Under the pieces are notes generated by a model. The model was given only the letters and a program-made list of their open reading frames with translations, ran no database searches and had not been told where the DNA came from. The position numbers and the translations under genes are program-made. From Chloroflexota bacterium (GTDB taxonomy: Bacteria > Chloroflexota > Dormibacteria > Dormibacterales > Dormibacteraceae): a stretch of 64,000 bases of DNA. The stretch covers positions 91,800 through 155,799 of the forward strand of contig VBIW01000036.1 of the NCBI GenBank assembly GCA_005880915.1, written 5' to 3'. Shown here piece after piece: positions 33,223 to 36,236 of this stretch (position 1 is its first letter; each line of letters starts with the position of its first letter).

Positions 33223-33747
33223 GTGATGAGAGGTGCCGCTCTCGGGCTGGCGATGTTGGTCGCGATGGCGTGCAATGGCCCGGGATCCGGCCCGAGCCTG
33301 CCCTCAGGCGCCCACTGGATCCACTACGCGCTCGTGAGCTCCGCAGGACCCGTGTCTCGAACGCAGGGTGTGCTGGCGGCCACATCTCTGTCGACGATCC
33401 GCGCTCAGGCGATCAGCGCCACGAGCACCACCTCGGCCGTCACGCCCTGGCCGGACGCCGGCCAGAAATCAGGAGTCCTTTACGTCGCGGTCGTCACACA
33501 TTACGAATGCACGAGGCCCACCGAGGACAAGATGGCCGCGAACGGCCCGGCGCTCTTCTACGTCCACTGGATCGGGCATTCGTCCGGAGTCTGCAACGCC
33601 GCGATGGCTGTGCCGTCATACCGGCTGTATGAGGTGCAGGTCGACCAGCTGCCGCGGTCGGGCAATGTCGACCTCAAGCTGCTGGTCGAGGATGCAGCCG
33701 ACGGCACGAAGATGGTGATCGCGGAGGCAGCCGTCCAGCTCAGCTAG
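33223..33747 (+). CDS. Putative lipoprotein/secreted protein, unknown function
   Basis: Signal-like MMRGAALGLAMLVAMACNGPGSG (possible lipobox), no recognised domain. Confidence 0.5.
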   Translation: MMRGAALGLAMLVAMACNGPGSGPSLPSGAHWIHYALVSSAGPVSRTQGVLAATSLSTIRAQAISATSTTSAVTPWPDAGQKSGVLYVAVVTHYECTRPTEDKMAANGPALFYVHWIGHSSGVCNAAMAVPSYRLYEVQVDQLPRSGNVDLKLLVEDAADGTKMVIAEAAVQLS

Positions 33748-34007
33748 TAGCCGTTGTGGTGTCGCGAGTCCTCGGGCTCCTGGCCAAGCAGCTGTGCCTG
33801 CAGCGCAAAGATGTCGTCGAGCACGCGGTCGATCCGCCGCCCCTCGAGCCTATGCTCGGCGAGGACGCCCGCGCGTTCGAGATGGCGCCGCAGCGCGGCA
33901 CCCAGCGGGCCGTCGATCCGGCTCTGGCCTCGGACCTGAGCCTCCTCCAGCAGCTGAAGGCATCTGTCGAGGGCGAGCTGCCTCGTCCTGTGCGCCCGGA
34001 CGCTCAT
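33744..34007 (-). CDS. Small conserved-operon protein downstream of Rieske gene
   Basis: 87 aa MSVRAHRTRQLALDRCLQLLEEAQVRGQSRIDGPLGAAL...; ATGA overlap with the Rieske stop. Confidence 0.55.
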   Translation of the reverse strand: MSVRAHRTRQLALDRCLQLLEEAQVRGQSRIDGPLGAALRRHLERAGVLAEHRLEGRRIDRVLDDIFALQAQLLGQEPEDSRHHNGY

Positions 34008-34654
34008 TCCGTGCCGAGCACCTCGACGCGGCCCGCATCTGTGACGCGCACGCGGACGGTGTTGAGCGCCGGCAGCGCGTAGGCGTCTGCGGGCCGGCCA
34101 TCGGGGGCAAAGGCAGCCGGGTGACAGGGGCATGCCAGATGTCCTTCCTTGCGGCTCCACCAGAGCTCACAAGGGAGGTGGGAGCAGATCGATGAGACCG
34201 CGCTCACGCTATCGCCGCGCCGGAAGAGGAAGGCGCCGACGCTGCCCGCCGCCACCTGGTGGCCCTGGCCCTCCGGCAGCTCGGTCAGTGCGGCCACGTC
34301 GACCCAGCGCCCGTTGACAGGGTCGATCGGCTCGCCGCCGGCCCGTCGGGGGTGCGGTTCCATCTCCCTGCTCAGAAAGCCGCCGCCGGCCGCGCCCGCC
34401 GCCAGACCGAGCCCAGCGACCAACGCACCGCGGCGGGTCATCCACCCGCCGGACGGCGTCTGCCCCAGGGCGCCGGCCAGGCGATTGCGGAACGCCGGGT
34501 GCATTCGCTGCGGGGCCTGCCGCGCGCCCGCCAGCCGTGCCGCGGCGGTGATGGCGGCCTTTTCCTCCGCGTCCCCCCCGCGCAACTTCAGCCTCCTGCC
34601 GCGGAGCAGGTCGGAGACGATCTTGTCGAGCCGGTCCTCGGGTTTCCGGTTCAT
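34004..34654 (-). CDS. Membrane-anchored Rieske [2Fe-2S] protein with N-terminal cytoplasmic segment
   Basis: CSHLPCELWWSRKEGHLACPCHPAAF; TAT/TM-like TRRGALVAGLGLAAGAAGGGFL preceded by ~70 charged residues. Confidence 0.83.
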   Translation of the reverse strand: MNRKPEDRLDKIVSDLLRGRRLKLRGGDAEEKAAITAAARLAGARQAPQRMHPAFRNRLAGALGQTPSGGWMTRRGALVAGLGLAAGAAGGGFLSREMEPHPRRAGGEPIDPVNGRWVDVAALTELPEGQGHQVAAGSVGAFLFRRGDSVSAVSSICSHLPCELWWSRKEGHLACPCHPAAFAPDGRPADAYALPALNTVRVRVTDAGRVEVLGTE

Positions 34655-35181
34655 TCAGAAACCCGCACCTTGGCCGCCGCACGCAGAGCGCGCAGCTGCA
34701 TGACCTTGATCGCACCGACTGTCGAATGCATCTCTGCTGCCACTTCCTTCAGGGAATACCCGTGCAGGAAACGGAGCTCGAGCACGCGTCGGTAGTTGTC
34801 GGAGAGCTGCGTGAGGATTTGCTGCACGGTCTCGGTGCCCGCCTCCGGCGACGGGCCGCGGGGGATGACGAGTGCGAGGTCTTCGCGCAGCTCAGCTTCG
34901 GACAGGCCGAGGCGGGTGCTCCAGAACGCTCCGAGCACGGAGCGCGCGGTGGCGAAGAGGTAGCCCCGAATTGCACTGGCGGGCGCGGTCTGGCGCAGAC
35001 GCGGGATCGCCTTCATGGCGACCTGCTGCGTCAGGTCCTCGGCGTCTGCCCGGTTGCCGACCCGGGCGTAGATGAAGGCGTAGACCAGCTCCAGCTCGTC
35101 GAGCGCGATGTCGGTCGCACGCGAGACGATGGGCAGCTCGAGCACATCAGCCGGCTGGCCGGGCTGCTCTTCAGTCGTCAT
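34651..35181 (-). CDS. ECF-type RNA polymerase sigma factor
   Basis: YARVGNRADAEDLTQQVAMKAIPRL (region 2) and LSDNYRRVLELRFLHGYSLKEVAAEMHSTVGAIKVMQLRALRAA (region 4). Confidence 0.87.
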   Translation of the reverse strand: MTTEEQPGQPADVLELPIVSRATDIALDELELVYAFIYARVGNRADAEDLTQQVAMKAIPRLRQTAPASAIRGYLFATARSVLGAFWSTRLGLSEAELREDLALVIPRGPSPEAGTETVQQILTQLSDNYRRVLELRFLHGYSLKEVAAEMHSTVGAIKVMQLRALRAAAKVRVSE

Positions 35182-35293
35182 AAGATCCAGCGCTGGCAAC
35201 CGCGCACCTGGCAATCACCGCGAACCACGCTCTGGCGGTCGTCAATCCGGCTCAGCACCGTGTTCGAGCATTACCGCAGCAGGTTACTGCTGC

Positions 35294-35327: not shown

Positions 35328-36236
35328 TTATGCGTGCTTTGGCTGTGGGGCGCGACGCCGGCGCCACACCAGCAAGCCGAGCAGGAACAGGACTATGAAC
35401 GGTCCGACGGCCCCGAGGGCGGTGACCGCGTAGTCGATGGTGGTGACGAAGTTGTGCGCCGCGTCGTTCAGCGCGGTGGCAAAGCCCCAGCTGTCTGAGC
35501 GCTGTGCGGTCTGCGTAGGCGCGCCGGACTCGGTCAGGGTGACGGCGATCGAGCTGTAAGAGGTGTTGTCGTCGAGGTATTTGATCTGGCCCTTGAGCTG
35601 TTCGATCTGGGCCGTGATCTGGCCGATCTGGTTCTGCACCGCGATGATGTCGTTGATGTTCTGCGCCCTGGTGAGGAGCGCGAGCATGGCCTGGTGCTGC
35701 GCCTCGGCATTGGCGAGGCGGGCTTTGAGGTCGACGTACTGGGCGCTGACGTCGGTACCGGTGATGTGCTCGCTCTGGACCTTGCCGACGCCAGTCAGCT
35801 GGTCGATGGTCGCGTCGAAGTGCGCCGCCGGGACCATGAAGTTGATCACGCCGGTGCGGATGGTGCTGTCCTGCGGGTTGGTGCTCGGACCGGCCTGCGC
35901 GTCGGTGCCTGCGATGTAGCCGCCCTCGCTCTCGACGAGGTTGCGGACCTGCGCCAGCTTGGAGTCGAACGCGCCTGAGCCGACGGTGAGGCTTAGCTGG
36001 GCCTGGCGGATCACGGGCGGACCAGAAAGCGCAGGAACCGTGTCGTTCGGCAGGGTCGTGCCGCCGCCGGCGGTCGTGCCGTTGGGCTGACCGACGCTCT
36101 TCGACGGCTGGCCGGCGCCGGTTTGCGGGTTGGGACCGCCGTACTGGCTTGTGGTGCTCCCGGCACCACCCCCAGTGCCTGCTCCGCAGGCGGCCGCGGC
36201 AACGAGGATGGCAACCACGACAAGAACCTTCTTCAT
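35328..36236 (-). CDS. DUF4349 lipoprotein
   Basis: MKKVLVVVAILVAAAACG lipobox, QAQLSLTVGSGAFDSKLAQVRNLVESEGGYI, coiled-coil, C-terminal TM and WRRRR. Confidence 0.83.
   Translation of the reverse strand: MKKVLVVVAILVAAAACGAGTGGGAGSTTSQYGGPNPQTGAGQPSKSVGQPNGTTAGGGTTLPNDTVPALSGPPVIRQAQLSLTVGSGAFDSKLAQVRNLVESEGGYIAGTDAQAGPSTNPQDSTIRTGVINFMVPAAHFDATIDQLTGVGKVQSEHITGTDVSAQYVDLKARLANAEAQHQAMLALLTRAQNINDIIAVQNQIGQITAQIEQLKGQIKYLDDNTSYSSIAVTLTESGAPTQTAQRSDSWGFATALNDAAHNFVTTIDYAVTALGAVGPFIVLFLLGLLVWRRRRAPQPKHA

Follow-up and report, generated by a model that had tools for sequence, protein, structure and literature searches.

An ECF sigma factor of the Chloroflexota and a putative membrane anti-sigma factor carrying a Rieske domain

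Main finding

The window—the whole stretch of 64,000 nucleotides of DNA analysed here, from an uncultured bacterium of the Chloroflexota—contains an operon in which the gene of an ECF sigma factor is followed by those of a Rieske protein and of a small protein of 87 residues. The Rieske protein consists of three modules, i.e. a helical N-terminal domain (NTD) of ~65 residues, a twin-arginine transmembrane segment and a bc-type Rieske domain. Overall, the pair is best, and probably correctly, explained as an ECF sigma factor with its cognate membrane anti-sigma factor equipped with a Rieske sensor. This explanation starts from features that were observed directly: the gene order, the strict linkage of the NTD to the sigma factor, natural fusions of the two, the conserved cluster ligands, and an upstream DNA element with its targets.

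Organisation of the operon

The sigma reading frame extends from the ATG at 35181 to the TGA at 34653-34651, this start being favoured over an upstream TTG at 35214, with the starts of the orthologues aligning at 35181. The Rieske frame begins with the ATG at 34654 and has its stop at 34004, while the open reading frame of the 87-residue protein runs from the ATG at 34007 to a stop at 33744 (Table 1). The coordinates derived anew agree with the earlier note, according to which ATGA overlaps join the sigma and Rieske genes (34654-34651) as well as the Rieske gene and the third one (34007-34004); its description of the Rieske protein—residues 1-70, a hydrophobic segment containing RR, and CSHLPC...CPCH—matches, too. 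All three proteins have been kept, in conserved order, throughout the family to which the window belongs, so that the arrangement is not a matter of chance. Across about 100 distinct relatives, a 4-nt NTGA overlap is found in 51 sigma/Rieske pairs, most of the others overlapping by 8-17 nt; in the pairs of the Ktedonobacteria type there is a gap of up to about 130 nt.

Table 1 Features of the operon and its surroundings in the window
Feature	Position	Strand	Basis
ECF sigma factor, sigma2 + sigma4, 176 aa	34651..35181	(-)	Pfam, TIGR02937, orthologue starts
Putative membrane anti-sigma factor with extracytoplasmic Rieske domain, 216 aa	34004..34654	(-)	Pfam, linkage to sigma, AlphaFold
87-aa protein, third gene of the operon, family-restricted	33744..34007	(-)	Conservation, codon-position changes
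N-terminal domain (NTD), residues ~6-66, three predicted helices, candidate anti-sigma domain	34457..34639	(-)	Profile A1, association with sigma, fusions L022/L026, AlphaFold of a relative
Twin-arginine (TRR) signal-anchor/transmembrane helix, residues 72-94	34373..34441	(-)	Sequence; RR census of relatives
Rieske [2Fe-2S] domain, residues 117-212	34019..34306	(-)	PF00355 E 3e-11; model of relative L115
Rieske box 1 CSHLPC: ligands C157 and H159, disulfide-type C162	34169..34186	(-)	Sequence, ligand census
Rieske box 2 CPCH: ligands C175 and H178, disulfide-type C177	34121..34132	(-)	Sequence, ligand census
Conserved bipartite promoter-like element GTAACC-N6-GGTA, upstream of the operon	35272..35287	(-)	Comparison of upstream regions
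Decayed remnant of a CHRD-domain lipoprotein gene	35182..35274	(-)	Comparison with relatives
DUF4349 lipoprotein-like gene, syntenic upstream neighbour in the family	35328..36236	(-)	Pfam, synteny

Identities of the 87-residue protein amount to 80-99% across the 20 nearest loci, i.e. it is more conserved than the Rieske protein, and its gene exhibits about 30-42 changes at third codon positions vs 3-9 at second positions, both of which identify it as a real gene. It has no match in Pfam and was found essentially only in the family of the window. Away from the sigma gene, there exist a second copy (L134) and a homologue interrupted by an internal stop (L133).

Concerning the upstream side, the DUF4349 gene is probably a unit separate from the operon, with a hairpin between that gene and the upstream element. 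In several relatives, an intact gene for a CHRD lipoprotein lies between the DUF4349 and sigma genes (e.g. L009, 478-969); in the genome of the window and in one further genome (G012) this CHRD/SodC-like lipoprotein gene has decayed.

The sigma factor

The sigma factor of the window contains the Pfam domains Sigma70_r2 and Sigma70_r4_2 and meets the criteria of an ECF sigma factor (sigma2 and sigma4 only, about 170-190 residues), scoring above the cut-off of TIGR02937 (62 bits, cut-off 43). Its best-scoring NCBIfam family is the BldN equivalog TIGR02952, whose cut-off is nevertheless missed (67 vs 206 bits), and BldN (6dxo_A) is also its only sequence match in the PDB at 1e-5. It should be pointed out that this sigma lineage is not exclusively linked to the Rieske protein, since the close paralogues L129-L131 have no Rieske neighbour; at least L129 and L131 possess, directly upstream, a MarR-type gene on the opposite strand.

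Association of the N-terminal domain with the sigma factor

The charged NTD (residues 1-70) has no database match, neither in Pfam nor, as a profile, among the PDB sequences. Its genomic position, by contrast with that of Rieske proteins lacking it, is strictly defined: the full-length NTD-Rieske proteins (61 relatives; loci L001-L052) are all encoded directly behind a sigma gene, whereas the NTD-less Rieske matches are not. The NTD profile A1 found matches in 77 of 400 genomes of the phylum, and among the 38 distant loci then fetched, a sigma gene is immediately upstream in 37, the remaining one (L095) having the NTD without sigma. In nearly all 38, the NTD, the membrane segment and the Rieske domain belong to one protein, three loci (L112, L126 and L127) being cut by contig ends. 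In a scan of named genomes covering 80 loci, sigma precedes 21/21 genes of NTD-Rieske proteins vs 1/59 genes of Rieske proteins without a detected NTD (Fisher p=2e-18), the sole exception among the latter being L150 from Candidatus Dormiibacterota. Co-occurrence of the pair across genomes, a check named in the earlier note, is thus borne out: among the NTD-Rieske proteins examined, which come from many families of the phylum, almost all are encoded directly behind sigma.

Rearrangements of the kinds expected of a sigma-binding domain were also observed. In two loci, the NTD is fused to the C-terminus of a sigma-like protein in a single chain (L022, 4228-5355, minus strand; L026, 1695-2450, plus strand); these fusions represent a divergent second sigma-like protein, of undetermined sigma activity, adjoining a canonical sigma-Rieske pair. 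In a third one (L037), a stand-alone NTD reading frame is positioned between the sigma and Rieske genes. The pairwise identities of 60 thinned pairs are correlated at r=0.745 for sigma and NTD, compared with 0.631 for sigma and Rieske domain and 0.639 for NTD and Rieske domain, and the bootstrap 95% intervals of both differences exclude 0; the divergence of the NTD tracks the sigma factor more closely than the Rieske domain to which it is attached.

The upstream element and a putative regulon

The regions upstream of the operon have in common, across the phylum, the element GTAACC-N5/6-SGTA. The spacing between GTAAC and SGTA is 7 nt in 52 and 6 nt in 12 of 94 distinct upstream regions (64 in all), while at any one distance of 15-18 nt SGTA is found in no more than two of the 94. 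The element alone is not enriched in the genome of the window (13 matches vs 16 for the reversed pattern), and its credibility therefore comes only from its position, the families of its targets, an added TC and its distribution among genomes.

Concerning position and targets, one of the eight N6 sites in the genome of the window belongs to the sigma-Rieske operon. Another five are followed, after 16-45 nt, by genes for proteins predicted to be secreted, namely a cupredoxin, one member each of the CHRD and Lipoprotein_15 families, and two unknown proteins; in the reversed control, this holds for 1/12 sites (p 0.01). The same target families recur downstream of the element in relatives, and a ferritin-like protein is also among the predicted extracytoplasmic targets. 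In at least 13 genomes, the element precedes a cytosolic family of ~263-303 residues without any Pfam match (L225, L249, L251, L255, L291, L292, L295, L304, L309, L315, L318, L321, L325 and L328), the start codon coming, with little variation, about 7 nt after SGTATC; the family is apparently a leaderless member of the putative regulon.

The T and C after SGTA, which lie outside the search pattern, are conserved in 67% and 72%, respectively. The element extended by TC has 84 matches in 96 genomes of the class vs 5 for the reversed control; 83 of the 84 are in the 67 NTD-positive genomes and one is in the 29 without the NTD (p=2e-11; within family f2 alone, p=0.03). Phylogeny contributes to this association, since family f4 mostly lacks both the system and the element.

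As judged from the sequence, SGTATC would suit as an ECF -10 box where starts are leaderless, and GTAACC resembles a -35 box, which would, however, lie near -24. The two boxes are one helical turn too close, separated by a gap of about 7 bp vs 16-17 in ECF promoters. Such a short spacer, for which there is no explanation at present, is not what an ECF sigma factor should read and counts against the sigma factor as the reader. It has to be considered, accordingly with the gap of about 7 bp, whether GTAACC-N6-SGTATC is the operator of another transcription factor instead of the promoter of this sigma factor, all the more as the element is partly dyad-symmetric (ACC-N6-GGT) when S = G. This possibility remains a serious one, falling only somewhat short of even chances: the sites of the operon itself are mostly asymmetric (CGTA), conservation with the operon across the phylum was not observed for any further DNA-binding protein, leaderless start codons lie at a constant distance that suits a -10 box, and the element tracks the presence of the system. 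Returning to the sigma factor as the reader, the fuller proposal—a phylum-wide class of envelope Rieske-sensing anti-sigma factors together with a sigma factor using -35-like and -10-like boxes about 7 bp apart, a geometry not yet described—is tentative, and we would hesitate to rely on it. Another candidate promoter in the window's family, TGAATC-N15-GTAACC, was rejected; TGAATC forms the loop of the hairpin behind DUF4349, and outside this family it is not conserved.

The Rieske domain and its ligands

The Rieske domain was recognised by Pfam (PF00355, E 3e-11), and the relative L115 yields a model that matches known Rieske structures, the bc-type 8hn2 being the best, so both features of a Rieske [2Fe-2S] protein, the ligand pattern C-x-H...C-x-x-H and the fold, are present. 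The set of C/H/C/H ligands together with both disulfide-type cysteines is kept in 89/94 distinct relatives. A twin-arginine motif precedes the hydrophobic segment, as required of a Tat-type signal-anchor, in 92/94. By inference from how Tat-exported Rieske proteins are known to be handled, the NTD would be inside and the Rieske domain outside.

Redox sensing by the cluster is inferred and plausible, with moderately favourable prospects. A less likely but not negligible alternative is that the NTD is an anti-sigma domain while the Rieske domain senses an input other than redox (iron-sulfur supply, metal, pH) or is only structural. In the remaining 5/94 relatives, the first His ligand is replaced by Asp (CSDLPC, CTDQGC), and this has occurred in two separate lineages (L048-L050 and L039/L051); the cluster may hence be altered or not essential. 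Moreover, Ser and Tyr after box 2 raise the potential in bc1 Rieske proteins, and the residues following CPCH in the distinct relatives are mostly not these two. Redox sensing is favoured, on the other hand, by the retention of the ligands and cysteines in the great majority and by redox or copper proteins among the neighbours and targets.

The predicted complex and the role of the N-terminal domain

In some relatives, the sigma and Rieske genes are in the same frame, which made it possible to model the sigma factor, the linker and the NTD of the relative L115 as one chain by reading through the sigma stop codon. In the AlphaFold model (pTM 0.79, mean pLDDT 83.5), the NTD helices reach 89-96 and the linker is of low confidence; for the full chain including the Rieske domain, pTM is 0.62. 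The contact between the NTD and sigma, whose prediction the earlier note had named as a check, is accordingly supported by a confident pairing, albeit in a linked chain of a relative and without a mismatched control. It should be noted that linking the two in one chain by read-through may bias their predicted proximity, there being no negative control or PAE. The three helices of the NTD (230-247, 260-274 and 284-303 of the relative's model) satisfy the three-helix criterion of class III anti-sigma factors.

A fold search with the sigma-NTD model returned, for its sigma part, 6dxo_A (BldN with RsbN) at the top, followed by SigW/RsiW and other structures of ECF sigma factors; the arrangement of sigma2 and sigma4 in the model does not superpose on 6dxo_A (TM 0.40). 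With the NTD profile A1, no match to the 6dxo chains was obtained at E<=10, nor was there a sequence match to any solved anti-sigma factor. The profile PF18915 (DUF5667), which we take to be RsbN-like, matched nothing, controls included, and is thus uninformative on likeness to RsbN.

All the evidence of contact would be equally compatible with an NTD that binds sigma as an activator, chaperone or membrane tether instead of an inhibitor, and the natural sigma::NTD fusions could be active proteins. Such a role is nonetheless held to be rather improbable, given that the gene order, membrane topology and overlap resemble those of known sigma/anti-sigma pairs and that BldN, the nearest solved sigma factor, is controlled by an adjacently encoded anti-sigma factor (PMC4255298). 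Least probable of all is that the Rieske protein is a co-transcribed electron-transfer target of sigma and not its regulator: Rieske domains are known electron carriers, the fold and ligands are typical of them and further Rieske genes as well as DoxX-like and cupredoxin genes occur in the vicinity in some cases, but this would leave unexplained the cytoplasmic NTD found only with sigma, the sigma fusions, the closer co-divergence with sigma and the confident sigma-NTD model, and the NCBIfam cut-offs for bc1/b6f Rieske subunits are far from met (TIGR01416, 20 vs 97 bits; NF050121, 21 vs 275; NF045928, 33 vs 250).

Neighbourhood and distribution

Elsewhere, the neighbours of the operon include genes for Lipoprotein_15, cupredoxin and PAP2-type proteins, a second Rieske protein, DoxX-like proteins and thioredoxin reductase. 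Together with the predicted targets, these neighbours favour, as an inference, an envelope redox or copper signal. The thioredoxin reductase gene is near the operon in one clade (L021, L030, L146 and 16 other loci), divergent where inspected and with conserved intergenic blocks; in a clade of the Ktedonobacterales type (L094, L096, L099, L107, L115, L119 and L139), a sigma-54 gene (rpoN) is nearby, on the opposite strand where inspected.

The system is present in the cultured bacteria Thermogemmatispora tikiterensis and Ktedonosporobacter rubrisoli, which makes it testable. Beyond the Chloroflexota, what is known of its distribution comes only from a pattern-limited scan and from a scan of plasmids, the latter without any full-length match.

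Proposed mechanism

That the Rieske protein is an anti-sigma factor, as the earlier note had suggested, is supported by the NTD-sigma linkage, the natural fusions, the co-divergence, the AlphaFold model and the restriction of the element to genomes with the system. We regard it as probable, the inhibition itself being inferred without biochemical data. According to the proposal, the three helices of the NTD would bind sigma2 and sigma4 and hold the sigma factor at the membrane, the twin-arginine signal-anchor would cross it, and the folded Rieske [2Fe-2S] domain outside would monitor the envelope for its redox or cluster state, with the quinone pool, copper or oxidants as possible inputs. A change at this domain would free the sigma factor by conformational change or proteolysis—a release step that is likewise inferred. 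Free sigma, the inferred reader of the GTAACC-N6-SGTATC element, might then transcribe the operon to which it belongs and a limited set of genes for extracytoplasmic proteins, i.e. Lipoprotein_15, CHRD, cupredoxin, ferritin-like and others.

If true, a Rieske sensor on an anti-sigma factor would directly couple transcription to respiration or to copper/redox chemistry outside the cell. Predicted targets and a DNA element come with the finding, which also raises the question of how an ECF sigma factor could read boxes 7 bp apart.

Comparison with known systems

No paper on an anti-sigma factor with a Rieske domain was found, although an earlier mention in the main ECF reclassification or in the RsbN structure papers is not excluded. 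While iron-sulfur anti-sigma factors are already known (RsmA, RshA), the architecture with a Rieske sensor is new, and newly described is also the GTAACC-N6-SGTA(TC) element upstream of the operon phylum-wide and of genes for secreted proteins.

The subunits QcrA and PetC of the bc1/b6f complexes share with the window protein the fold, the four ligands, the disulfide-type cysteines and the twin-arginine membrane anchor; the window protein differs from them in its sigma-linked NTD, in scoring below the family cut-offs and in having sigma in its flanks. The class I (ASDI/ZAS) and class II anti-sigma factors, such as RseA, RsiW, RsrA and CnrY, also possess a cytoplasmic domain holding the ECF sigma factor, often a membrane anchor and an outer sensor. 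The criteria of class I/ZAS are, however, not met, since the NTD contains no cysteine and hence no HX3CX2C motif, nor does it match a class I Pfam family, and the sensor domain of the Rieske protein is a different one.

RsmA from S. coelicolor and RshA from M. tuberculosis are [2Fe-2S] anti-sigma factors whose binding of sigma depends on redox or on the cluster (PMC3427169). They resemble the present protein in carrying the iron-sulfur cluster on the anti-sigma factor, but their cluster is within the sigma-binding protein, in a motif of the HX3CX2C/S type, whereas here it would belong to a separate Rieske domain beyond the membrane helix. The neighbourhood of ECF58 includes a protein with DUF3470 and an iron-sulfur binding domain, a suspected regulator (PMC8999054); this is likewise an ECF group with an iron-sulfur protein, yet the domain is another one and was not described as a Rieske protein (PMC8999054).

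The RsbN/BldN pair from Streptomyces (class III; PDB 6dxo), which ranks with RsmA and RshA as the nearest precedent, shares the adjacent anti-sigma gene, the membrane anchor and the three-helix cytoplasmic domain, and BldN is the nearest solved sigma factor by sequence as well as the top fold match. The NTD differs in having no detectable sequence similarity to the RsbN chain, and no iron-sulfur domain is known from RsbN. Of the three RsbN helices in the complex, two hold sigma4 and one holds sigma2 of another molecule, this being the third helix (PMC7406223). By analogy, the NTD may work like a class III anti-sigma factor, its membership in that class not being shown.
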